Shown here: in pieces, positions 45,695 to 60,729 of the stretch
How positions within the stretch are numbered: position 1 is the first letter of the stretch
How the letters are laid out: each line of letters starts with the position of its first letter
Origin: Synechococcus sp. UW69
Lineage (GTDB): Bacteria; Cyanobacteriota; Cyanobacteriia; PCC-6307; Cyanobiaceae
Assembly: GCF_900474185.1 (NCBI RefSeq)
Contig: NZ_UCNW01000009.1
Location: 1 to 64,000 of the forward strand
Length of the DNA stretch: 64,000 bases
Reading direction: 5' to 3'
Position numbers and translations under genes: made by a program
Notes under the pieces: generated by a model
Seen by the model: only the letters and a program-made list of their open reading frames with translations
Database searches by the model: none
Told to the model about the DNA's origin: nothing

Positions 45695-48600
45695 TCAAAC
45701 CAGGCCGGTGAAATCCGTCAGGCTGAAATCGCCGTTGCCGCCAATGATCGCGTCGAACTCAGGAGCTCGACCGATCACCTCGGCATAGCTCGCCCCCTGG
45801 CGGAGCAGATCATCGGCAGCCTCCACCAGGCTGGCCTCACCTTCAGCATCGTTGCTGAGGGCCCAGAACATCATTCCGCCCAAACCCTTCTCCTCCACGT
45901 AGGCCGCTTTACCGGCAATGGTGGCGGTGGTTTCCATGGAGCTCCACTCGTCTCCGTCGTACAGGAATGCCGCCTTGTTGTCGTCATCCCAGTAGAGGTT
46001 GCGCGTCCCCGTGATGACATCGTTGAGGACATCTTTGTAGTCGTAGACGCCCGCCTCAAACGAACCGGTGGCATCACGGCCGGAACCAGGCTGTTGGTAG
46101 CCGAAGGTTCCGCCATCAGCAACGTTGCCCCAGGCGCGGGTGTAGGCAGGGGCCCCCATCACAACCTTGCTCAGCTCGATCCCCGCGTTCTCGAAGACAT
46201 CGACCGCTCCAGTGACGTCGTAGTTGTTGGCGTCACCGGTCATGGCGGCCTGATGCCCAGTGACGTTCTCCCATCCACCGTGGAAGTCGTAGGTCATCAC
46301 GTTGTAGAAATCGACGTAGGGGTCAATGCCTGAAAGGTTGAGGTTGACCAGCTTCTCTTGGCCACCAGCCGTGGCAATCGACACCTCAAAGTCACGCCCG
46401 GTGCGGGCCGAAAGATCATCGAGGGCGGTGCGCAGATCACGCAACACCAGCTCGAAGTTGCCCCCATCACTGGCGGAGACGGCATTGCCCGCCTTGCCAC
46501 CACCACCCGGGTATTCCCAGTCGAAATCGACAACGTTGAAGAAGTCGTAGGTCTCGAAAATGCGTACGGTCTCGCTGACGAACTTGTCGCGACCCTCCTG
46601 CGTGGCATAGGCGGTGCTGAACTCATCCGACAACGTCCAACCACCGAGGGCAAAGCCAAGATTGACCTCCGGGTTGAGTTCCTTGAAGCGACGCAGCTGT
46701 TCAAAGTTGCCGGCATCGTTGGTGCCAACGCCGTTCCAACCCACTGGAACCGATGTCACGGTGATGGCGTCACCGGTTTGAGTAACGGTGTAGCGCCCTG
46801 AGTTTTCGTAGATGTCGAGCAGCTCCGGGTCCATTGCGGCGTAATCGCCGCTGCTGAAGGTGCGGCTGACCTGATCGGCCTCAGGGAAGCGCTTCTGGAG
46901 GGCAGCAAATTCGTCGAACAGAGTGATCGACCCATCCGCCTTCACGTCAAAGAAGCTGTAGTTCATGTGGGTCATCGACTGGCCGTCGACATCCGACAGA
47001 TTCAGATCACGGCTGTAGATGCCCCACTCCTCGAAGTAGGTCACCACCCGCTTATCGGTTGTGCCGTTGGGACGCTCGTAGTCGATAGTGACGGTGCCGC
47101 CCTCGGTCACAGGGCTGTCTTCGCTGACTGGGCTGTCTTCGATGACTGTGGCCTCACCGTCGGGGGTTTCAACAACGTCACTGGCATCTGGCTGCTGAGG
47201 AGATTCAGACTGCTCAACCACTGACGAATCCGGCTGAGGCACCTCGGCGCTCGTGGAGGCGAGATCGAACACCTGATTCGGATCAACAAAGTCTCCGGAA
47301 CCCTGGTAGTAGGAGCTCTGGGCGGAGCCCGCAGCCAGTGGAGCTGACCAAGACTTGGGACTCAGGGTGACGACATAACGGCCATCGTCACGGAGCGTGT
47401 TGGTGAACTCGAAGTTGCTGACGCTCTTCAACGGTGCATCGGAAACAAAACTCACCGTCCAGTCCTGACCGACTGAAGCACCGGTGGTGTTCTTCACCGT
47501 GACATTGCCAGCGAAGGTTCCCGACCAGCCACCCGTGATCGTGGCGGACACCACCAGACCTGAAGCACTGGGTTCAGGCTCCACCGTCGGCTCGGGTGCA
47601 CTGGGCATGGGGGACTCGATATCGATCTCTGGATCCATGTCCATCTCTGGATCCATCTCCATCTCTGGCTCCATGTCCATGGAGCCGTCATCGCCCATGG
47701 AATGGCTGTCGTGGGGAGGCTGCTCATTCACGGCCGGATCGCCGGCCTGGGTCTGAAAACCATCCGTCAGCTCACCGGCAGGAGCGGCGGGGGTAAGCAG
47801 AGCGGTGCGGTCCTTGAGGGTCAACGAGTCAACTGAGCGACCGAAAGGGATCTCGAGGTTGTCTTCGACGATCTGATCGAAGTGGAATTCCAGGCTGGCC
47901 CCAGGAATATCAGCCAGGTTGGTGTTCTGGAAGATGAAGGTCTGCCCGGTGGGCTCAGTCGAAATAACCAAGTCAGCCCCGTCCTGCGTCACCGAAAGAC
48001 GCTCGCGAGTGCCGTAATAGAGAAAGCTGATCTTGTCGGTGGTCGGATCAAAGTCGGTGATCGTCTCGACCCTGCCGTACTCGTGCGAGCGGATGTAGGT
48101 GGTGTTGGGGTCCTTCTCGCCGATGCCCAACTCCCACGACACAACGCCTCCCAGGTCTTGGCGAAGGTGTTCGTTGCCGACCACGCCGTAGTCCTCAAGG
48201 GCCAGCTGGTCGTAGGTCACCCCCACGAGGGTCATCTTCTGGGCGTCATTCCAGGGGCTCAAGAAGGTGACGTAGCCCTCTTCGGTTTTGCCAAGAATCA
48301 GGTTATGGACCGACTGACCACCGAAATCCAAACGATCAATGCCGGGGCGAAAGTCGGTGACCTCCCCTGAATAGACATCAACCTCGAAGACGCGTGTTGG
48401 GGCATCGGTCGTCGATGCTTCAACCTCAGGCTGGGCCTCGGGTTCGGGTTCGGGTTCGGGTTGAGGATCCGGAACAGGTTCGAGCTCAGACTCTGGCTTC
48501 GGCTCGAGAGAAGGCTCTTGTTGAGAGCTCAAATCATCAACAGACGAATCAACAAAGAACATCTCCTCCGTCAATGTTCCGCTGTGGGGAAGATCGACGC

Positions 48601-48886
48601 TGACGGCATTGAAACTCAGGCTCAGAGAGCCACCGGCAGGAATAGACGCACCCCACTCGGGCGGCCGAACAGTCACCTCATAGGTGCCATCCCCCAGATC
48701 AACAACGTCATAGGTGGACGACCAAACCTGAACATCTTTTTGCGTGGTGCGAAAGGTATACGACCAATCCGTCAGAGGGGTATCGCCGGAGTTGGTGAGG
48801 GTCAACTGACCTGACATACCCCCCCAATAAAGATTGCCAGAAACAGATGCTTGTAGCGCCAAAACAACAATGCTCAACTCGTTCAA
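45695..48886 (-). CDS. Modular family 18 chitinase with two CBM2-like domains
   Basis: 1063 aa. Order: CBM2-like module (about residues 7-112, SGNLYWGGMSGQLTLTN), Pro/Glu linker, two segments with DFRPGIDRLDF and DFDPTTDKISF like those of type I secreted proteins, an acidic Met/Asp/Glu repeat linker (about 400-440), a second CBM2-like module (about 440-535), an acidic linker, then a GH18 catalytic domain (about 605-1035). Catalytic DxDxE is VDFDWEYP with D787, D789 and E791; NVMTYDFHGG and MMFWALSND also fit GH18. No Sec signal is present, and a type I route is likely but unproven. The start is unclear: the frame begins after a stop with TTG at 48886 or 48877 and has no ATG. Confidence 0.87.
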   Translation of the reverse strand: MNELSIVVLALQASVSGNLYWGGMSGQLTLTNSGDTPLTDWSYTFRTTQKDVQVWSSTYDVVDLGDGTYEVTVRPPEWGASIPAGGSLSLSFNAVSVDLPHSGTLTEEMFFVDSSVDDLSSQQEPSLEPKPESELEPVPDPQPEPEPEPEAQPEVEASTTDAPTRVFEVDVYSGEVTDFRPGIDRLDFGGQSVHNLILGKTEEGYVTFLSPWNDAQKMTLVGVTYDQLALEDYGVVGNEHLRQDLGGVVSWELGIGEKDPNTTYIRSHEYGRVETITDFDPTTDKISFLYYGTRERLSVTQDGADLVISTEPTGQTFIFQNTNLADIPGASLEFHFDQIVEDNLEIPFGRSVDSLTLKDRTALLTPAAPAGELTDGFQTQAGDPAVNEQPPHDSHSMGDDGSMDMEPEMEMDPEMDMDPEIDIESPMPSAPEPTVEPEPSASGLVVSATITGGWSGTFAGNVTVKNTTGASVGQDWTVSFVSDAPLKSVSNFEFTNTLRDDGRYVVTLSPKSWSAPLAAGSAQSSYYQGSGDFVDPNQVFDLASTSAEVPQPDSSVVEQSESPQQPDASDVVETPDGEATVIEDSPVSEDSPVTEGGTVTIDYERPNGTTDKRVVTYFEEWGIYSRDLNLSDVDGQSMTHMNYSFFDVKADGSITLFDEFAALQKRFPEADQVSRTFSSGDYAAMDPELLDIYENSGRYTVTQTGDAITVTSVPVGWNGVGTNDAGNFEQLRRFKELNPEVNLGFALGGWTLSDEFSTAYATQEGRDKFVSETVRIFETYDFFNVVDFDWEYPGGGGKAGNAVSASDGGNFELVLRDLRTALDDLSARTGRDFEVSIATAGGQEKLVNLNLSGIDPYVDFYNVMTYDFHGGWENVTGHQAAMTGDANNYDVTGAVDVFENAGIELSKVVMGAPAYTRAWGNVADGGTFGYQQPGSGRDATGSFEAGVYDYKDVLNDVITGTRNLYWDDDNKAAFLYDGDEWSSMETTATIAGKAAYVEEKGLGGMMFWALSNDAEGEASLVEAADDLLRQGASYAEVIGRAPEFDAIIGGNGDFSLTDFTGLV
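47625..47678 (-). repeat. Three 18-base tandem repeats in the chitinase linker
   Basis: Units ATCTCTGGATCCATGTCC at 47625, 47643 and 47661 with one or two changes each. They encode an alternating Met/Asp/Glu/Pro linker between the secretion-like segment and the second CBM2-like domain. Confidence 0.85.
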
Positions 48887-49059: not shown

Positions 49060-49230
49060 TCAGAACTGGAAGGTCACACCGCCGCTCGCGCGCCAGGTCG
49101 TGCCACGGTCGCTGGCCCAAAACTCCATGCCGCCACGGCCATACAGCTTCACGGAGACGCCGTTGAAGTTCTGCACCGTGTAGTCCAATCCCGCCTCAAG
49201 CAAGGCGCCGTTCTCGGTGCCCAGCTGTGA
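49059..49230 (-). repeat. Barrel 3'-end copy A (near-identical to 53088-53259)
   Basis: The last 172 bases around the stop of autotransporter 1 differ at one position (49200 G versus 53229 T) from the same stretch of autotransporter 2, offset 4029. Upstream barrel DNA remains similar but less so. Confidence 0.85.
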
Positions 49231-52200
49231 ATCAAACCTGGCTGTTTTCTTGCTGAACTTGTAGCCAATCTCCTGGCCCGCATTCGCCTGGTTCCAATCC
49301 GCCAGCCACGCTGCCCGAAGGCTCGGCACCAACAGCCCCCGCTCGCCGGTGCGAATCGGCACCGACAGCTTCATCCCCAGTTCCGTCTCAGCAAAGTTCG
49401 TCGTGCGGCTCTTGTACTTCAGCCGCAGGTTCTTCTCCGTTCCGCCGGTTTCGGAGAATCCCTGTTCATGGTTCCTTGTCCACACCACCTGGCCTTGGGG
49501 TTCGAGCACCACACCACCGGACTTGAACGGGGCACCAATCCGCAGTGCTCCCAGATAGCTGGTGACGCTCTTGTCACCCCGGGCCGTGTTGCCGCCCAGA
49601 TCATCATTAATCCGCAGGATGTTGCGGGACTGTTCGCCGCTGAATTCACTGGCCCCCAGCAGGCCCTGCACATAGAAATGGCGGGTGGAGTACTGGGCTG
49701 TTAATCCGCCGCCCCAGCCCTCGGGGTTCCAGCTACCACCACCAGTCTCACCCCTGCGGTGGTTCACATTCAGATCGCCGTAGTTGGCATAAGCACCGAT
49801 CTGGAAGCTTTCGCTCAACGCCACATCCACACCAAAACTGGTGCCATAGGCGCTCAAGTCGTAGTCGTTGTACAAAATCGACGACTCATCAGCGCGGCTG
49901 TTGCCGCCGAATCCCTTCACCCAAGCGCTGACGCCATCACGCTTGGCCAGATCCAGCTCATCGTCCTGCTGATCGACAAGGCTCACCCCATCCAGCTCAA
50001 TCGCAACTTCTTCTTCCTCAACCTCGATTGCAACCTCGCCATTCACACCTACATCGGCGACCTCAACCTCTGCGACCGCTCCTTCCACATACTCAGCCGC
50101 TTCTCCATCACTGAGCTCCTCACCCTTCAGCCACAACGGTTGGACAGGGGCCGCCTCCTCAATCACGGCCTCCTCTTCCACAACGCTCTCCTCTACAACC
50201 TCTTCACTCACCAACAGCTCCTCGAACTGACGCAGCGGCTGCCGTTCAAACACCGCATCCACCAGCAAGTTGTTATGAAGCGCCAATCCACGACCCGCTG
50301 CATCCACATTCCGTGGGGCCAAGCCACTACCCACCAACTTTGCCAATTCGCCGTAATCAAAGCTCAGGGGCAAAACAATTCGATCATTATGCAAGCCATC
50401 CAACAGGGCATCGATGATTTCGATAGCGGCGTTTTCTTCTGCATCCCACGCCTCATCTTTAAAATCAGCTACATCACTGATCACATCACATAAAGGATCA
50501 CCATCTTCACAACCTGGGATTGGGTCAGGTTTTGGGGGATTAGGTTTTGGGGGATTAGGTTTTGGGGGATTAGGTTTTGGGGGATTAGGCTTTGGGGGAT
50601 TAGGATCATTTTTACACTTTTCAATATCAGGATATAAATCGCAGATCGGCGGATCAGGTTTCGGATCCGGCTTATTCGGGTCATCCTTGCACTTATCAGA
50701 GTCAGGATGCAAGTCGCAAAATATCTCGCCTGGCTTCTTAGACTCAACGACAAGATTCAAAGAACCTTCGGACAAGAAAACCTTGTGGACGGCCGGCTGA
50801 TGGGCGGCGTTCTCTTCACCAAGACCATTAAAGGAATACGCCTGATCTTGATCAACCACAAGATATGTATTTTCAGCAAGATCATCAATATTTTTGACTC
50901 GACCATCAATGATCTTCCAAACACCTTTCGGATTGCCAGGCATTTCAGCACTAACGACCAAGCTGCCACTCTCATAATCGAATGAGTCACTCACACGCAA
51001 AGGCGGATTATTCTTTCCATCCAAAGAGGTGATAATTCCACCTGGACTTGAATCCTTTAAAGAGTCAGCATCCAGCGTGATTGTTTCAGAAACCAACGGC
51101 TGAGCAGGTGAAACAAAAACTCGGCCACCTTCTTGAATACTCAGCCGATCAATCTTGAATTCACCCTGGTTCGTGGGCTCGGATCGCAAATCGAGCTGGC
51201 CAGTTCCAGTCACGAATGTATGCGATTCACGAGGAATCGCATACAGATTGGCGATCGATAGAACACCTTCATCAATCGTCGTCTCGCCCCGATAGGTGTT
51301 ATCTCCTGAAAACGTGGTTGCACCTTCGCCAACCTTCTTAAATCCACCTTCACCGGAGATCTCTCCAGACACAGTGGTATCTGTATCCAATCCACCAGCA
51401 GTCAGCGTCTGGTCTTCAGCAATAACAATCTCGCCAGCACCTTCAATCGATCCAATCTCATCACTGTTAGCAACTTCATAGGTGGCACCCTCAGCAACAG
51501 AGACGGCCGTACCGTCACTGAGTGAACCCGTGACCTTCAATGTTCCCGCCTTGATCTCGGTGGCACCTCCATAGGTGTTATCTCCTGAAAACGTGGTTGC
51601 ACCTTCGCCAACCTTCTTAAATCCACCTTCACCGGAGATCTCTCCAGACACAGTGGTATCTGTATCCAATCCACCAGCAGTCAGCGTCTGGTCTTCAGCA
51701 ATAACAATCTCGCCAGCACCTTCAATCGATCCAATCTCATCGCTATTAGCAACTTCATAAGCAGCACCCTCAGCAACAGAAACAGCAGTACCATCGCTGA
51801 GAGTTCCAGTGACTCGGAGAGTTCCTTCAAGAATATTGGTATCACCAACATAAGCATTATCGGCGGCCAAAATTGTTACGCCCTCACCCTCAAAATCAAG
51901 AGACCCTGCACCCGAAGATCTTGCCAACAAAATATCCGAAAATTTCCCATTAAAGATGGTGGAAATTCCATTGTTATCGATCGTCCCGCCTTCATGGCCG
52001 ATCCAAAATGGTGGCGTGATGTCTGCAGCACCTGGATCTGTTACGAGGATCCCTCCTTGGAACACTGGAGCGTAGGTATCCTCCCTGACCTTTTCACCAT
52101 CAAACTCGCAAGGATCAACGGCGCTTACAACCAAATCATTCGTGCCTGGCGCCTCTCCAGATGAAATTGTATTGACGGCGCATCCGCCAAAGGCTTGAAT

Positions 52201-52782
52201 TCGATTATTACTTCCATTTCTTGTAATGTACTCGATTGAGTTCCATTCATAGATCAATCCTGTTTTCCCATTTGTACTGCCCATGGGCCTTTGATCAACA
52301 CCTTCTGGCGGAGGGACCTTTGGATCGGCATGGTTTCTCATATCCCAGTTGCCAAAAATAAAGCCACCACCATTGTCGTAACCGTTAAGAGCCAAGTTCC
52401 CATCATCATCGAGCAGACTAGCTTCTCTTGCAAAATCCTCATATCCGCCCGACAGTTCCTCGGCCAGTGCCTCGTCATCTCCCCAGGGAAAGAACATACT
52501 GATCTGCGGATCATCCCACCAGCTTCCGACCGAAATTCCTGGAATAGGATCAGAACCATCCGATTCTTCCGGATTAACCCAGGTGTAGTAGTTAATTGCA
52601 TAATATTTACCATCATCACCCTCAAGAACTGTTTGTAGATACTGGGGCAATGTGTAAATCTTGACCACGCCACTTTCCGTGACCTTTGTACCACCCTGCG
52701 GAGGCTCAACCTGTGCATGCACAGGAGAAACAGAAAATGCAACACCTACGAAGAGGCCTGAGAGTACTTTTTTAACCACCAT
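49060..52782 (-). CDS. Autotransporter-like surface protein 1 (PATR passenger, beta-barrel)
   Basis: 1240 aa. A Sec signal peptide at 1-24 ends VSPVHA. The passenger starts with a unique acidic domain with a few Cys, then beta-helical PATR repeats (TFSGDNTYGGATEIKAGTL type) in which a 93-residue unit is tandemly duplicated. Next come Cys pairs (CDLHPD, CDLYPD), a KPNPP repeat linker, a conserved helical linker (APRNVDAAGRGLALHNNLL), a Glu-rich stretch, and a C-terminal autotransporter barrel from about residue 960 (SAWVKGFGG to GGVTFQF) ending in Phe. This is the type Va secretion plan, rarely described in picocyanobacteria. Cargo function unknown. Located 278 bases downstream of its larger paralogue's stop palindromes. 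Confidence 0.85.
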   Translation of the reverse strand: MVVKKVLSGLFVGVAFSVSPVHAQVEPPQGGTKVTESGVVKIYTLPQYLQTVLEGDDGKYYAINYYTWVNPEESDGSDPIPGISVGSWWDDPQISMFFPWGDDEALAEELSGGYEDFAREASLLDDDGNLALNGYDNGGGFIFGNWDMRNHADPKVPPPEGVDQRPMGSTNGKTGLIYEWNSIEYITRNGSNNRIQAFGGCAVNTISSGEAPGTNDLVVSAVDPCEFDGEKVREDTYAPVFQGGILVTDPGAADITPPFWIGHEGGTIDNNGISTIFNGKFSDILLARSSGAGSLDFEGEGVTILAADNAYVGDTNILEGTLRVTGTLSDGTAVSVAEGAAYEVANSDEIGSIEGAGEIVIAEDQTLTAGGLDTDTTVSGEISGEGGFKKVGEGATTFSGDNTYGGATEIKAGTLKVTGSLSDGTAVSVAEGATYEVANSDEIGSIEGAGEIVIAEDQTLTAGGLDTDTTVSGEISGEGGFKKVGEGATTFSGDNTYRGETTIDEGVLSIANLYAIPRESHTFVTGTGQLDLRSEPTNQGEFKIDRLSIQEGGRVFVSPAQPLVSETITLDADSLKDSSPGGIITSLDGKNNPPLRVSDSFDYESGSLVVSAEMPGNPKGVWKIIDGRVKNIDDLAENTYLVVDQDQAYSFNGLGEENAAHQPAVHKVFLSEGSLNLVVESKKPGEIFCDLHPDSDKCKDDPNKPDPKPDPPICDLYPDIEKCKNDPNPPKPNPPKPNPPKPNPPKPNPPKPDPIPGCEDGDPLCDVISDVADFKDEAWDAEENAAIEIIDALLDGLHNDRIVLPLSFDYGELAKLVGSGLAPRNVDAAGRGLALHNNLLVDAVFERQPLRQFEELLVSEEVVEESVVEEEAVIEEAAPVQPLWLKGEELSDGEAAEYVEGAVAEVEVADVGVNGEVAIEVEEEEVAIELDGVSLVDQQDDELDLAKRDGVSAWVKGFGGNSRADESSILYNDYDLSAYGTSFGVDVALSESFQIGAYANYGDLNVNHRRGETGGGSWNPEGWGGGLTAQYSTRHFYVQGLLGASEFSGEQSRNILRINDDLGGNTARGDKSVTSYLGALRIGAPFKSGGVVLEPQGQVVWTRNHEQGFSETGGTEKNLRLKYKSRTTNFAETELGMKLSVPIRTGERGLLVPSLRAAWLADWNQANAGQEIGYKFSKKTARFDSQLGTENGALLEAGLDYTVQNFNGVSVKLYGRGGMEFWASDRGTTWRASGGVTFQF
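50528..50602 (-). repeat. Five 15-base tandem repeats (KPNPP linker)
   Basis: Unit GGTTTTGGGGGATTA at 50528, 50543, 50558, 50573 and (one change) 50588. On the coding strand it gives Pro-Lys-Pro-Asn-Pro, a rigid extended linker. Four exact copies suggest recent slippage and likely length variation between strains. Confidence 0.95.
51292..51849 (-). repeat. Two 279-base tandem repeats in the passenger
   Basis: Two direct copies of a 93-codon unit; 51292-51462 is identical to 51571-51741 over 171 bases, then a few changes appear. Each unit carries one PATR-like repeat and a stretch with DGTAVSVAEGA and IAEDQTLTAGG. Confidence 0.92.
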
Positions 52783-53088
52783 CTACGAATGGATTCTTAT
52801 AGTTTTCTAGCGGAATGAGTCGGACATGTCAGACAGAGATCATTTATTTTTTCAAAACAAGGGCCTGCAAAGCGCGCAAGCGAAATGGCGCAATTCGAGT
52901 CTCAATAGACCTAAAGGGTAACTCTCGCTGTTGGTCAAAGTTTGACCGGTGAAGACAGGATTGGACAAGATCCAGCGATTCGATCTGACACACAACCCAT
53001 CTGCAGCGGTTGAGCAAACTGAACATCCCCAAAAATGGGGGATGGATTGATATTCAGTACTCCCTCAACTGGGGGATCAGTTGTGCAA
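52783..53088. other. Gap between the two autotransporter genes
   Basis: 306 bases. The right end carries two palindromes downstream of autotransporter 2 (53024 and 53061). The left end should hold the promoter of autotransporter 1: on the reverse strand a TATAAG-like box lies about 20 bases before its start codon region, but no clear -35 was found. No gene seen. Confidence 0.5.
53024..53076 (-). repeat. Two inverted repeats downstream of autotransporter 2
   Basis: CATCCCC / GGGGATG with an AAAAATG loop at 53024-53044, and TCCCTCA-AC-TGGGGGA at 53061-53076, which has one imperfect pair. Both belong to the family at 45631-45687 and 49033. They lie 12-65 bases beyond the autotransporter 2 stop. 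Confidence 0.6.
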
Positions 53089-53259
53089 TCAGAACTGGAA
53101 GGTCACACCGCCGCTCGCGCGCCAGGTCGTGCCACGGTCGCTGGCCCAAAACTCCATGCCGCCACGGCCATACAGCTTCACGGAGACGCCGTTGAAGTTC
53201 TGCACCGTGTAGTCCAATCCCGCCTCAATCAAGGCGCCGTTCTCGGTGCCCAGCTGTGA
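53088..53259 (-). repeat. Barrel 3'-end copy B (near-identical to 49059-49230)
   Basis: Partner of the copy at 49059-49230, with one mismatch in 172 bases. The identity includes the stop codon and fades after 53259, while the encoded barrel protein stays highly similar for about 280 residues. Confidence 0.85.
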
Positions 53260-56200
53260 CTCGAAATCCACCGTCTTGTTGGTGAACTTGTAGCCGATCT
53301 CCTGGCCTTCGTTCGCCTGGTTCCAATCCGCCAGCCATGCAGCACGCAGACTTGGCACCAACAGCGCACGCTCACCCGTGCGGATCGGCACCGACAGCTT
53401 CATGCCCAACTCCGTCTCCGCAAAATTCGTTGTGCGGCTCTTGTACTTCAGCCGCAGGTTCTGCTCTGTTCCACTGGTTTCGGAGAAGCCTTGTTCGTGG
53501 TTGCGGGTCCACACCACTTGGCCCTGCGGTTCCAGCACAACTCCACCGGTCTTGAACGGTGCACCAATCCGCAGTGCTCCCAGATAACTGGTCACGCTCT
53601 TGTCGCCCTTGGCCGTGTTGCCACCCAGATCGTTGTTGATCTGCAGGATGTTGCGCGACTGCTCGCCGCTGAATTCACTGGCCCCCAGCAGGCCCTGCAC
53701 ATAGAAATGGCGGGTGGAGTACTGGGCGGTGATGCCGCCGCCCCAGCCCTCGGGGTTCCAGCTGCCGCCACCGGTGTCACCGCTGTGCTGGTGCACATTC
53801 ACATCGCCGTAGTTGGCGTAAGCGCCGATCTGGAAGCTCTCGCTCAGCGCCACATCCACACCAAAGCTGGTGCCGTAGGCATCCAAGCTGTAGTCGTTGT
53901 AGAGAATCGACGACTCATCAGCACGGCTGTTGCCGCCGAATCCCTTCACCCAGGCGCTCACCCCATCGCGCATAGCCAGATCCAATTCGTCGTCCTGCTG
54001 ATCGACAAAACGGAGAGCTTCAGCATCAGCAGTTTCGGCATCGGCATCGGCCTGCGCAACGGCACCCTCCACATACTGCGCAGCCTCAGCATCAGCGAGT
54101 TCATCAGTCTTCAGCCACAGCGGTTGCACTGGAGCCGCCTCCTCAATCACCGCCTCTTCCTCAACAACGCTCTCCTCAACAACCTCTTCACTCACCAGCA
54201 GTTCCTCGAACTGACGTAGTGGCTGGCGATCAAACAACGTATCCACCAGCAGGTTGTTGTGCAGCGCTAAACCGCGGCCTGCTGCATCCACATTCCGAGG
54301 CGCCAAGCCGCTGGCCACCAACCGCGCCAATTGGCCGTAATCAAAGCTGAGTGGCAAATCAATTTCTTCCTCTGCCAAGCCATCGAGCAACGCATCAATC
54401 ACCTCCCCAGCATCCTCTTCTTCCTCTCCCCAAGCCTCATCTTCATCGCCGGGGATATCACTAATCACATCACACAAATCATCTCCCACCTCACAACCGG
54501 GGAGCTGATCCAATTCACCGTCTCCGTCATCGTCCGGATCTTTGTCATCCGGAATGCCATCGTTGTCGTCATCCTCATCGATTAGATCAGGCATTCCGTC
54601 ATCATCAGTATCAGGCAAATTGTTACTAACTAAGCAATCATCGCCTTCACAAGGCTTATTCGGGTGGGGATCAATATAGTCAGGCAGGCCATCATCATCC
54701 TCATCTGGGAGATCTTCAACATCAGGATCTTCACCTAATTGGCAATAATCTTCGTCGTCGCAAGGAACAATTGGAAGCAGGCTATCCGCCTCAAGCTCAG
54801 GTCTTTGATCGTTGAAATCCAAATCATCACAATCAGGATCACCAGGATGCAAACTACAGAAAAGCTCTTCCTGTATCTTCGGTTCGATCTCAAGGTTGAG
54901 TGATCCCTTTGACAGATAGCCTTTGTAAAGGGCAGGGCCCATTACAACATTCTCATCTCCATCCCTGAGTCCATTAAAAGGATATGCACGAGAGGCATCG
55001 CCATCCGATCCTGCGACGACCAAATAAGTTTCTTCCGCAAGTTCCTCTACGTTTTCAACATTGCCTTCAATAATGGGCCAAGTGCCTTCAGGATCATCTG
55101 TTGCAGAAGCTGCAACAACGAGAGTTCCACTTTCATAGGCGAAAGAATCATTCACCTTGATGGGCGACTTGCCTTCTTTGCTGTCGAGATGAACAACGAC
55201 ACCGCCAGGCTTAAAGGAATGCTTCGAACCTGCACGGAGATTGATGTAATCAGCCTCAAGAGGATTGGCCTGATCAACATACAACCGCCCACCCTCGAAA
55301 ATATCTAACTGACTGATGTATTGCTTATAACCCATCAAATCCAAGATCCCACGATCTGTGGCCGTGGTCCAAATGTTGGGGCTGAAACTGAAGTGATTGG
55401 CTCCCTTGGCTACGCCTCCAACAACATTCAACTCGCCCCGAAAATTATTACGCCCAGAGAAGACAGTCACACCAGACTGGATCCGAAGTTCATCAAGCGA
55501 ACCACTTCCAGAAGGAATGCGTCCTTTACCCAAATCTTTGATAACACCACCCGTCGAAGTGATTTTTTGAGCATTCAATACACCACCATTGCCATCAATC
55601 GAACCCCCTTTCAATTCAATTGATTGGACGATCTGATCTGTCCCATTCAAATCCAAGGTGCCAAGCTGGTTAATCGTTATGACCTCAGACTCTGGGCTCA
55701 ATGCATCGTCAACCCCGGCTTTCAGGGTGGCTCCCTTATCAATCCTTGTATTACCTGTGTAGTCGTTTTTCCCACTAAGGGTTGTCAAACCATTTGCCGC
55801 GATCAAGCCACCTTGGCCAGTGAGATTGGCACTGATTGTGCCACCTTTGGAAAGCAAATCATCGTTTGGATTTTCTCCCCACGTCAACGAACCCTTTTCA
55901 ATAGAGCCACCATCAAGAACCAACTCATTCACATGTTGCGCTACACCACCCAAATCCAGAGTTCCAGCAATCGTGTGCTCAGATGCAGCATTTAAAACAA
56001 GCTCAGCTCCGGCCCGGAGAGTTGCCTCTGACTTCACAGTCGTGTCACCGGAATAGTCACTTTCTTGGCCATAAATGATCGTCACACCATCTTCAGCAAT
56101 CAAACCACCCTCACCACTGAGCTGCGCATACACAGTCCCGCCAGAAGAAATCAAGCCATTCGCTGTCGACAAAACACCTTCCGAGATCTCACCCCCCTCA

Positions 56201-59200
56201 AGATTCAGCTGTTTAACGTTTTGGTTAATACTATCTCCACCCAAGTTCAAGGTTCCGGAGACAGTATGCACAGACTCTTTACTGAGGACATCTTCGCCAC
56301 CAGCCTGCAAAGTTGCACCTTCTTTGATTTCGGTATGGCCGGAATAGTCACTCTTATCACTATGAAGGGTTGTTGTGCCAGCAGTTACAACCAATCCACC
56401 ATCTTTTTCATCACCTGTTGTGAGCTTGGCGTAAATCTGGCCGCCTGTTGAGAAGACACCTTTCTTAGTCGACAAAATACCATCGTAAATTGAACCACCC
56501 TCAAGATTCAGCCTGTTGACCCGCTGATTGATGCCCGCACCACCCAATTCCAAGACTCCATGAATTTCATGATCTGATGACTCACTCAGCGCCTTAGCAT
56601 TCAGTGCAACTAAAGTTCCCCCTTTTTCAACAATAGTATTTCCGCTGTAATTACTGGAGCCACCCAACTTGGTCGTTGCACCGGAGGTGGTACGCAATGA
56701 CGCCTTGGCGGTAACGCCATCATTTCTTCGAATGCCATCCGTAACCGTCAGCTCACCTTTATTAGTAATTTCGCTCAGGACAGAACTCTCCACCTCAATG
56801 GAGGAGAACGTGGCCTCGCCAGTACCTTCACCACTCACAGCGGTAGTGCTATCGATAATCACATCACCTGCATTCACCTGCAGCGCCAAGGGCTCATCGC
56901 CAAACCCATAAGCCTTGATGTCGTAAGTCCAGGTGCCGCCTTGCTGCGTTATGCGATCAATGCCTGAAAGCATTTGAACAGACAAGGCACCTGATCCAGC
57001 CTTATCGGTACCGGAACCAAGCAAGAACTGATCATCAACATCAGAACGCCCCTCAACGGCAACCGCAGAAAGATTGCCCTCATGAAGACGAATGACATTA
57101 TTTTTGCTCGTGGAATCATCTCCATCGACATCAAAGCTGATCACACCCGCGCGGAACGTGGCAGCATTATCAATCGTCAGTGTGTTGCCTTTGGGTAATT
57201 CTGTTTCCAGCAGAAGGCATGTTTTATCGGAAGAAACTGAGAAATTTCCATCATCATCAAAATCGCAGCCCGTTAACCCCTTGGGGGTTTCCCAATCTCC
57301 GTCGTAATTGATCAGGGCAAAATTGCGAAGCGACGACTTCTCAAAACCAGGCGATTGATCAGGTGTGAGATTTTGGTAGACATTGATTTCCCCTTGCCAC
57401 TCGCCATCGCTGATCGAACCGATATCACCACCGTCAATTACGGATCCAGTAGGAATCGAAACCGTGGCTTGCTTGGTGAGCAAAAGATCATTGCCCTGAT
57501 CAAGATGGATCGCAGCAGAGCAACCATCACCGCTGCATTCACCCTGGTTGGTGAACATCCCAGAGGACAGTGTTAACTCCGAGCCCTGATCCAAAGTGAT
57601 GTCATCTGCACCTTCGCTCCCCTCTAAAACCACTGCCTTAGCGATGCCATGTAGCTCCATAAAGCCACCTGAGGTATTGCCTTTCTCAAAGAGATCAATA
57701 TGTCCTTTCTTTACATCCAATGTGGAACCCGATTGAATGGTGATGCTGTGGGACAACACATCACCTTCGTTCAAGGTCAGGCTCGATTTGGAGGAAGAAT
57801 CTTGGTGGCCAATCTCAATCGAGTTGGAAGTTAGATTGCCATCGCTGATTGTGAAGGTACTGGTACCTGATTGAGTTTTCTCAGCACCTACCATCAGACC
57901 CCCAAGATCAGCTGATGTTTGTTCAGCAACTCCCGTGATCGTGGTTCTTGAATTTCCACGCGTTAGCACAGAGTCCTCTGTTTCAAGAGAGCCCTTAATC
58001 GTGAGGAAGGCGGAATTTTCAATCGAATGGTTCGAACCTGACTGGTCAACTTTCAGATCTTCAAAAGTCGCATAAGCGCTATTGACCAAGGATTCGACTT
58101 CCGCCGATTCTTTGACATCGAGAGTGTCTGAGTTGGTGACGCGCGTGGCCTGCAGGCTTCCCGAGCCCAAGTTGATCTCACCTGCATTGACGATCGATCC
58201 CTGGGATTGGCTTAAGCCTGTGAGATTAATTTGACCCTCATTGATCAAATTGCGGTTCACCAACGTACCGTTTTCAACCTTTGATTTCCCCCCCTTTACG
58301 GTGAGTGTGTTGATGGTCTGGGTCTCTCCACCCAAATCGAGGGTGGCACCACCCTCGACGGTGGTGTCTGACGAGGCGCTGAAGGCGTTGGCCGCTGCTG
58401 CTTTTAATGTTCCCTCACGAACACTTGTTGACCCTGAATAGGAGCTGTTCGAAACAATCGTCGTTCCAGCGCCCTTTTTCACGACATCAGTGGAGCCGTT
58501 GATGGAATCAATCGTTCCAGCCTGAGCATCAATAGATTTCGATGATCCACTTTTTACAGATCCCGCCAGAAGATTCACAGTGACATCGGAATGTGCACGG
58601 CTGTTCAAATCCAGTTCAGACGTCCCTGCATGCAACGTGAATTCACCCGACGATCCACTGATGTAGCGAACAGGAGCGTATACGTCGATATCACCGTCGA
58701 CATCCTCTAAAAGAGAAACGGAATTACCCGCACTAGCATCAACTTTAATCTTCGCATTTGCATTTTTTACATCCTGAATCTTGCCACCATCAGAAACAAT
58801 CAGATCAGCAGCATCAAGATGACAGTCGGCATTCAGCGTTGAACCACTGCCTGAAACACTGATGGTCAGGCTTTCAAATTTATTTTTGGCAGCAGAGCAG
58901 CGAGTACTCGCCCCATTCACCGTGCCACCACCACGAATGGTGAGGGTGTTGTTTCCAGCGCCGGTGGGATCCAGGACATCCAGCCAGCCGCCATCAACTG
59001 TTTTGTCGAAGTTAATCGACTCGGAATAAATCAGCTTGGCATCACCAGAATTAATGTTGCCTGAATGGTGACGAGCAAACGGGTTGGTGCCGGCTTCAAA
59101 AGTAAATTCAGTGACTGCTGTACGTTTTTTACTTTTAGCACTATCTTTTGTCCAATCTGTCAAGATATTATTGGAAACGACGACCCCCAAGTTTTCCTGC

Positions 59201-59739
59201 CAGCTTTTTAGTTGAGCAAGCTGAGAGGAACCCCAAATAACGGGTGTTGTTCCATAGTAACCAGAGCCTTTATGAAGATGATTACTTGAGTTCTTATCCC
59301 ACCAACCCACATCGTGAAAACTATTGTTCCCCGTCTTCCGGCGTATAACCACCCCCAACTGAAAACCATTGCGCAGGTCGCTATCACCACGCATTTTTAG
59401 CGCTGCATCATCAATCCAATCACTCAGATCAAGCCGATCAATTTTCCACTTACCAGATTCTGTATACATATCGGGGCAGTTATAGTAATGATCGCAGCCG
59501 TATTTAAAACGCTTGTCGATGCCCTTCCCCCATTTGACAGACGTATAACCACCAGAAAAATCGGCTGTTGGCTCAGAACGGAAAATCGGCAAGGAAGAAT
59601 ACTTGCCGCCGCCAGGCGCATGAGGCGAATCACTGGCCCGTGCCGGCATCTCACTGAACCAGGCCAGCTGAGCGAGGGCCGCAAAAAAGATCAGAAATTT
59701 GTAGCTCTGAGCTCTTGACTTGTGGCGATCTTTTTTCAC
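53089..59739 (-). CDS. Giant autotransporter-like surface protein 2 (PATR passenger, Asp-rich linker, beta-barrel)
   Basis: About 2216 aa from the GTG at 59739, which yields a Sec signal (KFLIFFAALAQLAWFSEMPARA then SDS). The frame is open upstream to a TTG at 59820, but that would put a charged extension before the signal. After a unique N-terminal domain with GYDHYYNCPD-like Cys, a long beta-helical passenger follows with many PATR units (GTTTLHSDKSDYSGHTEI, GVTIIYGQESDYSGDT, GLTTLSGKNDYTGNT). Then come a calcium-type Asp-rich region (about 1630-1758, DDDGLPDYIDP and DTDDDGMPDLIDEDDD), the linker shared with autotransporter 1, and a barrel from about 1920 ending GGVTFQF. Among the largest proteins a picocyanobacterium makes. 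Function unknown; adhesion or cell-surface layer are possibilities. Confidence 0.85.
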   Translation of the reverse strand: MKKDRHKSRAQSYKFLIFFAALAQLAWFSEMPARASDSPHAPGGGKYSSLPIFRSEPTADFSGGYTSVKWGKGIDKRFKYGCDHYYNCPDMYTESGKWKIDRLDLSDWIDDAALKMRGDSDLRNGFQLGVVIRRKTGNNSFHDVGWWDKNSSNHLHKGSGYYGTTPVIWGSSQLAQLKSWQENLGVVVSNNILTDWTKDSAKSKKRTAVTEFTFEAGTNPFARHHSGNINSGDAKLIYSESINFDKTVDGGWLDVLDPTGAGNNTLTIRGGGTVNGASTRCSAAKNKFESLTISVSGSGSTLNADCHLDAADLIVSDGGKIQDVKNANAKIKVDASAGNSVSLLEDVDGDIDVYAPVRYISGSSGEFTLHAGTSELDLNSRAHSDVTVNLLAGSVKSGSSKSIDAQAGTIDSINGSTDVVKKGAGTTIVSNSSYSGSTSVREGTLKAAAANAFSASSDTTVEGGATLDLGGETQTINTLTVKGGKSKVENGTLVNRNLINEGQINLTGLSQSQGSIVNAGEINLGSGSLQATRVTNSDTLDVKESAEVESLVNSAYATFEDLKVDQSGSNHSIENSAFLTIKGSLETEDSVLTRGNSRTTITGVAEQTSADLGGLMVGAEKTQSGTSTFTISDGNLTSNSIEIGHQDSSSKSSLTLNEGDVLSHSITIQSGSTLDVKKGHIDLFEKGNTSGGFMELHGIAKAVVLEGSEGADDITLDQGSELTLSSGMFTNQGECSGDGCSAAIHLDQGNDLLLTKQATVSIPTGSVIDGGDIGSISDGEWQGEINVYQNLTPDQSPGFEKSSLRNFALINYDGDWETPKGLTGCDFDDDGNFSVSSDKTCLLLETELPKGNTLTIDNAATFRAGVISFDVDGDDSTSKNNVIRLHEGNLSAVAVEGRSDVDDQFLLGSGTDKAGSGALSVQMLSGIDRITQQGGTWTYDIKAYGFGDEPLALQVNAGDVIIDSTTAVSGEGTGEATFSSIEVESSVLSEITNKGELTVTDGIRRNDGVTAKASLRTTSGATTKLGGSSNYSGNTIVEKGGTLVALNAKALSESSDHEIHGVLELGGAGINQRVNRLNLEGGSIYDGILSTKKGVFSTGGQIYAKLTTGDEKDGGLVVTAGTTTLHSDKSDYSGHTEIKEGATLQAGGEDVLSKESVHTVSGTLNLGGDSINQNVKQLNLEGGEISEGVLSTANGLISSGGTVYAQLSGEGGLIAEDGVTIIYGQESDYSGDTTVKSEATLRAGAELVLNAASEHTIAGTLDLGGVAQHVNELVLDGGSIEKGSLTWGENPNDDLLSKGGTISANLTGQGGLIAANGLTTLSGKNDYTGNTRIDKGATLKAGVDDALSPESEVITINQLGTLDLNGTDQIVQSIELKGGSIDGNGGVLNAQKITSTGGVIKDLGKGRIPSGSGSLDELRIQSGVTVFSGRNNFRGELNVVGGVAKGANHFSFSPNIWTTATDRGILDLMGYKQYISQLDIFEGGRLYVDQANPLEADYINLRAGSKHSFKPGGVVVHLDSKEGKSPIKVNDSFAYESGTLVVAASATDDPEGTWPIIEGNVENVEELAEETYLVVAGSDGDASRAYPFNGLRDGDENVVMGPALYKGYLSKGSLNLEIEPKIQEELFCSLHPGDPDCDDLDFNDQRPELEADSLLPIVPCDDEDYCQLGEDPDVEDLPDEDDDGLPDYIDPHPNKPCEGDDCLVSNNLPDTDDDGMPDLIDEDDDNDGIPDDKDPDDDGDGELDQLPGCEVGDDLCDVISDIPGDEDEAWGEEEEDAGEVIDALLDGLAEEEIDLPLSFDYGQLARLVASGLAPRNVDAAGRGLALHNNLLVDTLFDRQPLRQFEELLVSEEVVEESVVEEEAVIEEAAPVQPLWLKTDELADAEAAQYVEGAVAQADADAETADAEALRFVDQQDDELDLAMRDGVSAWVKGFGGNSRADESSILYNDYSLDAYGTSFGVDVALSESFQIGAYANYGDVNVHQHSGDTGGGSWNPEGWGGGITAQYSTRHFYVQGLLGASEFSGEQSRNILQINNDLGGNTAKGDKSVTSYLGALRIGAPFKTGGVVLEPQGQVVWTRNHEQGFSETSGTEQNLRLKYKSRTTNFAETELGMKLSVPIRTGERALLVPSLRAAWLADWNQANEGQEIGYKFTNKTVDFESQLGTENGALIEAGLDYTVQNFNGVSVKLYGRGGMEFWASDRGTTWRASGGVTFQF
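54466..54850 (-). other. Segment encoding Asp-rich, calcium-binding-like repeats
   Basis: Within autotransporter 2. Repeated D-x-D-D-D-G-x-P-D words resemble thrombospondin type 3 repeats, which bind calcium. Paired Cys words (CEGDDC, CDDEDYC) flank them. Autotransporter 1 has the KPNPP linker at the same place. Confidence 0.8.
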
Positions 59740-59841
59740 TCTTCTGTAGAGGTTCTCTTCAAAAGCTAGAGATTTCCAGGTCGCACGCAACCCAACCCGA
59801 AAACAAACGATTGCGACCAACGCGACTGAGAATAATTCCCG

Positions 59842-60729
59842 CTATTGATCACATTGGAAGCGACGGCCAGGGCCCTCCAGCCGCCAGGCATGCAATCGAT
59901 AGCCCCCATCCCCGGGGGTTGCGGTGGCTGAAATCTCGCGATTCAGCAGGTACAGCGGATCCCCCAGCAGCGGACTGCCCAGCTGCGCCAGATGAATGCG
60001 GATCTGATGCGGCCGCCCCGTCGTGATCGTCACCTGCAAGCGATCACCCTCAGCCGTGCGCTCCAACAGCTCCAGCTCGGAGTGGGCTGAGAGCCGTTTG
60101 CGAATCGGCGCATCGTCGAGCGGTTCCGGCCCCCAGATCCAACCGAGCAGCGGATGCGGCCGTTCCACCACATCACTGCTCACCGTCAACGACTGCCCCA
60201 GCTCCAACCCCGGCACCCGCTGGCTCCAGGCCTGATACACCTTGCGGCAACCACCATCAGGCCGGAACTGCTTCGACCAGAGCGCGCGGGTTTGCTGCGA
60301 ACGGGCACACACCTGCAAGCCAGAGGTGAACCGCCCCAAGCGGTGCACCGGCCGCGCCCCGGCGGGTTCGAGCAAGGCGGTGAGGGTGTGGCGCAAAAAG
60401 CCACCACCGGGCATCACCGGCAAGCCCGAGGGCTTGTTGATCACCAACAGGTCGCCGTCATCGTGGATTGTCTCCCACTGATCGGGAATCGCCTCCTCCA
60501 GCCATGGCGGACGCCGCCAACAGAGAGTCTCTCCGCCCTGCAGCGCTCGATCCTCTGAGAGAAGCGTTCCGTTCAAATCCAGCTCACCAGCGGCGATTCT
60601 GTGCTGCCACACTGCCCTATCGGAGTGGCGGTAGCGGTCCGCCAGCCAACCGCTCACCAAGGTGCCAGCATCAGCCCGTGGCACCCGGTCGCGGTAGCTC
60701 CAGCCGTCGTTAAGCGCGGCCGCCTTCAA
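59842..60729 (-). CDS. RluA-family pseudouridine synthase homologue
   Basis: 295 aa. An S4-like N-terminal region (AGELDLNGTLLSED, LCWRRPPW) precedes the RluA fold: HDDGDLLVINKPSGLPVMPGG, the motif II region PVHRLGRFTSGLQVCARS, and the C-terminal TGRPHQIRIHLAQLGSPLLGDPLY. In RluA enzymes the motif reads HRLDRxTSG and its Asp is the catalytic nucleophile; here the codon at 60336-60334 is GGG (Gly). Some plant and cyanobacterial homologues may share this change, as I remember, so it may be a distinct subfamily. Downstream the autotransporter 2 frame begins 21 bases away. Confidence 0.82.
   Translation of the reverse strand: MKAAALNDGWSYRDRVPRADAGTLVSGWLADRYRHSDRAVWQHRIAAGELDLNGTLLSEDRALQGGETLCWRRPPWLEEAIPDQWETIHDDGDLLVINKPSGLPVMPGGGFLRHTLTALLEPAGARPVHRLGRFTSGLQVCARSQQTRALWSKQFRPDGGCRKVYQAWSQRVPGLELGQSLTVSSDVVERPHPLLGWIWGPEPLDDAPIRKRLSAHSELELLERTAEGDRLQVTITTGRPHQIRIHLAQLGSPLLGDPLYLLNREISATATPGDGGYRLHAWRLEGPGRRFQCDQ

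Follow-up and report, generated by a model that had tools for sequence, protein, structure and literature searches.

Type Va autotransporters of the classical kind (PF03797/PF12951, AIDA-I/Ag43-like) combine a signal peptide, a PATR passenger, and a barrel ending in Phe within one polypeptide. In the Antigen 43 variants, one monophyletic translocator is combined with shuffled passenger subdomains, and several copies occur per genome (PMC10058404). According to the accessible part of a 2015 survey by Simm et al. (PMC4365693), autotransporter-domain proteins were specific to Synechococcus among the cyanobacteria examined; these proteins share barrel class and lineage with the genes described here, and in that part of the survey they are covered by a domain listing, with no architecture, recombination, or slot analysis described. 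Marine Synechococcus also carry giant surface proteins such as SwmB, which the excerpts available from the literature (PMC4949707) describe as very large, strain-specific, exported, and tied to interaction or grazing evasion.

The DNA stretch analyzed here (the window, 64,000 nucleotides) carries two adjacent reverse-strand open reading frames, AT1 and AT2, which share the classical plan. The initial annotation had described two reverse-strand genes of 1240 and about 2216 aa with a signal peptide, PATR passenger, linker, and barrel; its coordinates hold, and all four parts are present. The pair differs from classical type Va proteins in that its barrel subfamily has no PDB match by profile, its host is a cyanobacterium, and acidic/TSP3-like or poly-Pro linkers lie between stem and barrel. 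In contrast to Antigen 43, the head is replaced by unrelated sequence, the anchors recombine across genera, and the genes occupy fixed slots that are either empty or occupied; neither AT1 nor AT2 has a Pfam/NCBIfam match to ESPR or an Ag43-type family. Very large size is also common to the pair and the SwmB-type proteins, but the excerpts on SwmB do not describe a PF03797 barrel. The parts of the two genes are as follows.

49060..52782, reverse strand: AT1, autotransporter gene, 1240 aa from ATG (open reading frame and profile matches)
52714..52782, reverse strand: AT1 signal peptide, residues 1-23, ...SPVHA before Q (by eye from sequence)
51913..52713, reverse strand: AT1 head, residues 24-290, without a Pfam match; family in 11/400 picocyanobacterial genomes
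50713..51912, reverse strand: AT1 PATR stem, residues 291-690, predicted beta-helix (PATR/TIGR02601 and PDB 8e7f_A match)
51287..51844, reverse strand: two 279-nt tandem units, 89% identical, within the AT1 stem
50503..50712, reverse strand: AT1 linker with paired-Cys loops and a (PNPPK)n run (sequence, alignment)
49063..50502, reverse strand: AT1 conserved anchor module, residues 761-1240, acidic region and PF03797 barrel
52783..53088, reverse strand: AT2-AT1 intergenic region, with a terminator-like hairpin at 53044-53024
53089..59739, reverse strand: AT2, autotransporter gene, 2216 aa from GTG (open reading frame and profile matches)
59635..59739, reverse strand: AT2 signal peptide, residues 1-35, ...MPARA before S (by eye from sequence)
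58567..59634, reverse strand: AT2 head, residues 36-391; does not align with the head of its slot-B counterpart in genome G131
54850..58566, reverse strand: AT2 stem, residues 392-1630; parts of the G131 slot-B gene align with it at 52-54% identity
54487..54849, reverse strand: AT2 linker, DxDxDG-type (thrombospondin-3-like) acidic repeats and paired Cys (sequence)
53092..54486, reverse strand: AT2 conserved anchor module, residues 1752-2216 (profile and alignments)

AT2 has an alternative start, an upstream TTG at 59820, which would extend the protein to 2243 aa. The signal peptides were read by eye as MVVKKVLSGLFVGVAFSVSPVHA followed by Q in AT1 and a sequence ending in KFLIFFAALAQLAWFSEMPARA followed by S in AT2, and n-, h-, and c-regions with an A-x-A-like site are visible at both N-termini. 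The Pfam search gave no TSP_3 hit in the AT2 linker, and a search for consensus promoters returned scores below the shuffled mean.

The C-terminal barrel, which had been proposed to belong to the autotransporter beta-domain family, matches PF03797 in both proteins at E-values of about 1e-32 (AT1 residues 953-1204, E 1.8e-32; AT2 residues 1956-2207 as read from 59820, E 9.5e-32), and the matches cover profile positions 1-245 of 255. PATR (PF12951) matches three stretches in AT1 and two in AT2, in agreement with TIGR02601, and accounts for only a small part of either passenger. Both proteins end in WRASGGVTFQF, so that the GGVTFQF ending reported initially is read at both C-termini, and the C-terminal Phe is invariant in 18 relatives. 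The host genome encodes one Omp85/BamA and one TamB. No PDB chain matched the barrel profile, and AlphaFold2 gave an unusable model of linker and barrel from a two-row alignment (pLDDT 28) and a poor one of the AT1 passenger from a single sequence (pLDDT 37), so that the case for the barrel rests on profiles. A crude periodicity count found 13 strand-like segments in the barrel, compared with 7.5 +/- 1.9 in shuffles (shuffle maximum 13). The 12-strand transmembrane fold is thus predicted from the profile matches, the invariant C-terminal Phe, and this crude count. No YadA-type anchor of the trimeric (type Vc) autotransporters was found, as Pfam returned only PF03797 and PATR.

The cyanobacterial host, a picocyanobacterium of marine type, is borne out by genes for phytoene desaturase, NdhF, and NdhD in the window, and the nearest named relative of the barrel comes from a Synechococcus metagenome-assembled genome (MAG). 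The type Va reading of the initial annotation stands as far as the plan is concerned, given the profiles, the C-terminal aromatic signature, and the Omp85/BamA and TamB genes; the rarity in cyanobacteria that it implied does not. PF03797 occurs in 109 of the 400 sampled genomes of the host family, at up to nine places per genome, and the accessible part of the 2015 survey already places autotransporters in Synechococcus (PMC4365693); the broad outline of type Va secretion in this group was thus known beforehand. Elsewhere in the phylum, PF03797 is scattered over 31 of 194 genomes. A scan of a genome collection with the barrel retrieved one Synechococcus MAG only, on a contig where the barrel adjoins a GH57 gene, and a scan of IMG/VR retrieved no relative, which at that sensitivity gives no sign of phage carriage.

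Several further proteins with PF03797 or head-like matches were encountered in these searches. Candidate giant autotransporter-related proteins lie at G259:C1:2328438-2329262, G193:C1:261569-262393, and G181:C1 about 877000-910000; they comprise open frames of 7,000-10,770 aa in which the PF03797 match is split and, in G181, one of 20,437 aa with weak matches resembling the AT1 head. Genome G009, of another genus, encodes three short autotransporters of 583-625 aa (C1:2197095, 2199755, and 2395820) whose PF03797 scores are equal; the two that were read have the same C-terminus, again pointing to multi-copy anchors. In G529 and G535, of a distant small-genome family of the same phylum (f28), as many as eight proteins per genome match PF03797 at near-equal scores, which may be a parallel instance of anchor sharing.

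The protein class itself is already known; the less ordinary part is the combination of a recombining anchor, head replacement, and slot polymorphism. The host genome contains four copies over the cut-off, P1 to P4: the window pair, P3 (contig C2, 1655 aa), and P4 (C11, 1353 aa). Their last ~470 residues are 82-92% identical, their PATR-repeat stems are roughly 30-48% identical, and their heads (the first ~290 residues) have no significant mutual similarity, apart from a weak match between P1 and P3 where head meets stem. At one and the same position the linker comes in two kinds: that of AT1 is Pro-rich, (PNPPK)n, and those of AT2, P3, and P4 consist of acidic DxDxDG repeats. GC is about 0.60 in the barrels and falls to 0.44-0.48 in the passengers, which accounts for the dip in GC that the window shows at 50-60 kb. 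In total, 18 genes were examined in detail.

The AT1 head family scores strongly in 11 of 400 genomes from two genera, every time within a long open frame, and forms the N-terminus of an autotransporter in all cases examined. The conservation of Cys, Trp, and polar positions across seven of these proteins would fit a reading in which the heads are unrecognized hydrolases carried on a beta-helix, making the products secreted or cell-bound enzymes as in the SPATEs, and other autotransporters do carry N-terminal catalytic domains. Against such a role, the Pfam search matched no family, including the SPATE peptidase S6 domain, in the head of either AT1 or AT2, and the autotransporter protease in the PDB (8e7f_A) is matched by the AT1 repeat region only; an enzymatic function of the heads is therefore considered unlikely.

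The contrast between uniform anchors and unlike heads could arise by ordinary vertical inheritance of paralogues, with the anchor under strong purifying selection and the passengers diverging quickly, so that neither recombination nor exchange would be needed. A conserved anchor with a variable passenger is usual for autotransporters, and the anchor is the functional translocator, with a low dN (0.02-0.05). However, purifying selection on the protein does not lower dS. Barrel dS is 0.33-0.56 among the four paralogues of the host, and 0.43-0.59 to the sister species G186, whose core flank stands at 0.45. To G141, which belongs to another genus, it is 0.45-0.56 although the core flank has reached 1.87; the barrel thus stays at about 0.5 across genera. 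AT1 and its G141 counterpart, 74% identical over 1233 residues, form a dS mosaic in which the head is near 2 or saturated, the stem 0.4-1.05 (0.4-0.7 in most of it), the linker 2.0, and the anchor/barrel 0.4-0.7.

Tract and tree comparisons bear on the same question. AT1 and AT2 share an exact tract of 140 nt that ends at the stop codon, and P3 and P4 share one of 278 nt, lengths that were each reached in 0/2000 shuffles.

49060..49199, reverse strand: 140-nt 3' tract identical in AT1 and AT2, AT1 copy
53089..53228, reverse strand: 140-nt 3' tract identical in AT1 and AT2, AT2 copy

The PHI test was significant for the seven closest barrels (0/1000 permutations) and gave only p=0.06 once the G131 barrel was added. 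For seven proteins of the AT1 head family, the AU test rejected the tree of the anchors when applied to head data (p=1e-4) and that of the heads when applied to anchor data (p=3e-49). The barrel tree is also independent of genomic position, slot A (described below) needing seven changes for seven rows. The exact tracts, the PHI and AU results, and the slot-independent barrel tree all speak against vertically inherited paralogues, which are contradicted by the dS and AU results and appear very improbable. Because the host genome is a 15-contig assembly, the exact tracts may partly be assembly chimeras between near-identical repeats. This doubt applies less to the complete genomes G259, G204, and G141, which at the sequence level support the pattern independently. 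In G259, which belongs to another genus, a tandem pair in slot D is 92-100% identical in DNA over most of the last ~1200 nt and then about 30% identical, and in these terms it repeats the pattern of the window.

The genes occupy recurrent genomic positions. In the window (slot B), the pair lies between a chitinase gene and an rluA gene.

59842..60729, reverse strand: rluA-type pseudouridine synthase, fixed flank of slot B
45695..48886, reverse strand: GH18 chitinase with two CBM2 domains, the other flank of slot B

Slot B is occupied in two genomes, the second being G131, which has a single 3707-aa autotransporter beside its chitinase; AT2 and this gene have the signal-peptide sequence and the stem in common, but not the head. 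It is empty in three (G216, G249, and G174), where chitinase and rluA are directly adjacent at about 185 nt. Slot A, flanked by genes for a GH57 branching enzyme and lycopene cyclase, holds an autotransporter of 1.1-3.5 kilo-residues in 4 of the 34 genomes of the genus and in several of another genus, and is empty in 26 of the 34, where the flanking genes are <=121 nt apart or overlap. Judging from gene order in these genomes, the slots are fixed and empty in most relatives. The slot-A autotransporter of G186 is broken by an in-frame stop (L038:10401-10405), the upstream frame carrying the head family, and is possibly a pseudogene or a sequencing error. In one empty-slot relative, the 3' end of rluA contains a 10-base sequence, TGCATGCCTG, that also occurs downstream of AT1; it is too short to build on.

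The flank of slot B raises the question of a chitin-attachment locus, in which the pair and the neighboring CBM2/GH18 chitinase would together keep cells attached to chitin particles. The immediate neighbor is a GH18 chitinase with two CBM2 domains, the same-slot autotransporter of G131 also lies next to a chitinase, and marine Synechococcus are known to attach to chitin (PMC12329445). However, chitinase and rluA adjoin each other directly in the three genomes with an empty slot, and the relatives of the pair that occupy slots A, C, and D adjoin genes for branching enzyme/lycopene cyclase, an amidase, and GH116. With slot B often empty and different neighbors at the other slots, a role specific to chitin is quite unlikely, and the chitinase neighborhood, suggestive as it is, is probably incidental.

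The explanation that best accommodates these observations, with a probability of about 0.72, is a modular, horizontally exchanged family of type Va autotransporters, read as long, rod-like beta-helical display proteins, in which the anchor recombines and the heads and stems are replaced, giving a variable surface. By analogy with the family, Sec would export the chain, BamA/TamB would insert the C-terminal barrel, and the passenger would cross the outer membrane and fold as a PATR beta-helix, with the N-terminal head as the outermost tip. Cells carry one to several copies in the fixed genomic slots. The sequences show that recombination, both inside a genome and across genomes of the same or different genera, keeps the anchor module uniform, while the heads, and to a lesser degree the stems, are replaced. 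The anchor is probably the shared homology region that lets new heads enter and move between slots, and the outcome would be a variable surface. As tips, rods, anchors, and genome positions are traded among relatives, the family seems to be a modular means of surface variation. The selective cause would most likely be recognition, through attachment to cells or particles or through evasion of phages and grazers.

A stronger version of this modular exchange is an active cassette system, in which the anchor would serve as a homology arm and heads and stems taken up as DNA would replace those in the fixed slots, with rapid turnover of tips in the population; this extension is tentative and rather doubtful at present. 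The literature searched, which covered few subscription journals, yielded no description of a recombining anchor, head replacement, and slot polymorphism across picocyanobacterial genera.

To our knowledge, little is known of the receptors and the surface variation that underlie resistance to phages and grazers in marine picocyanobacteria. A conserved, recombining anchor with swappable heads in defined slots provides a concrete list of surface proteins to test, and slot occupancy together with head type offers an easy genomic read-out for natural populations. If the cassette system were real, free-living phototrophs under pressure from phages and grazers would have a counterpart to the antigenic variation of pathogens.
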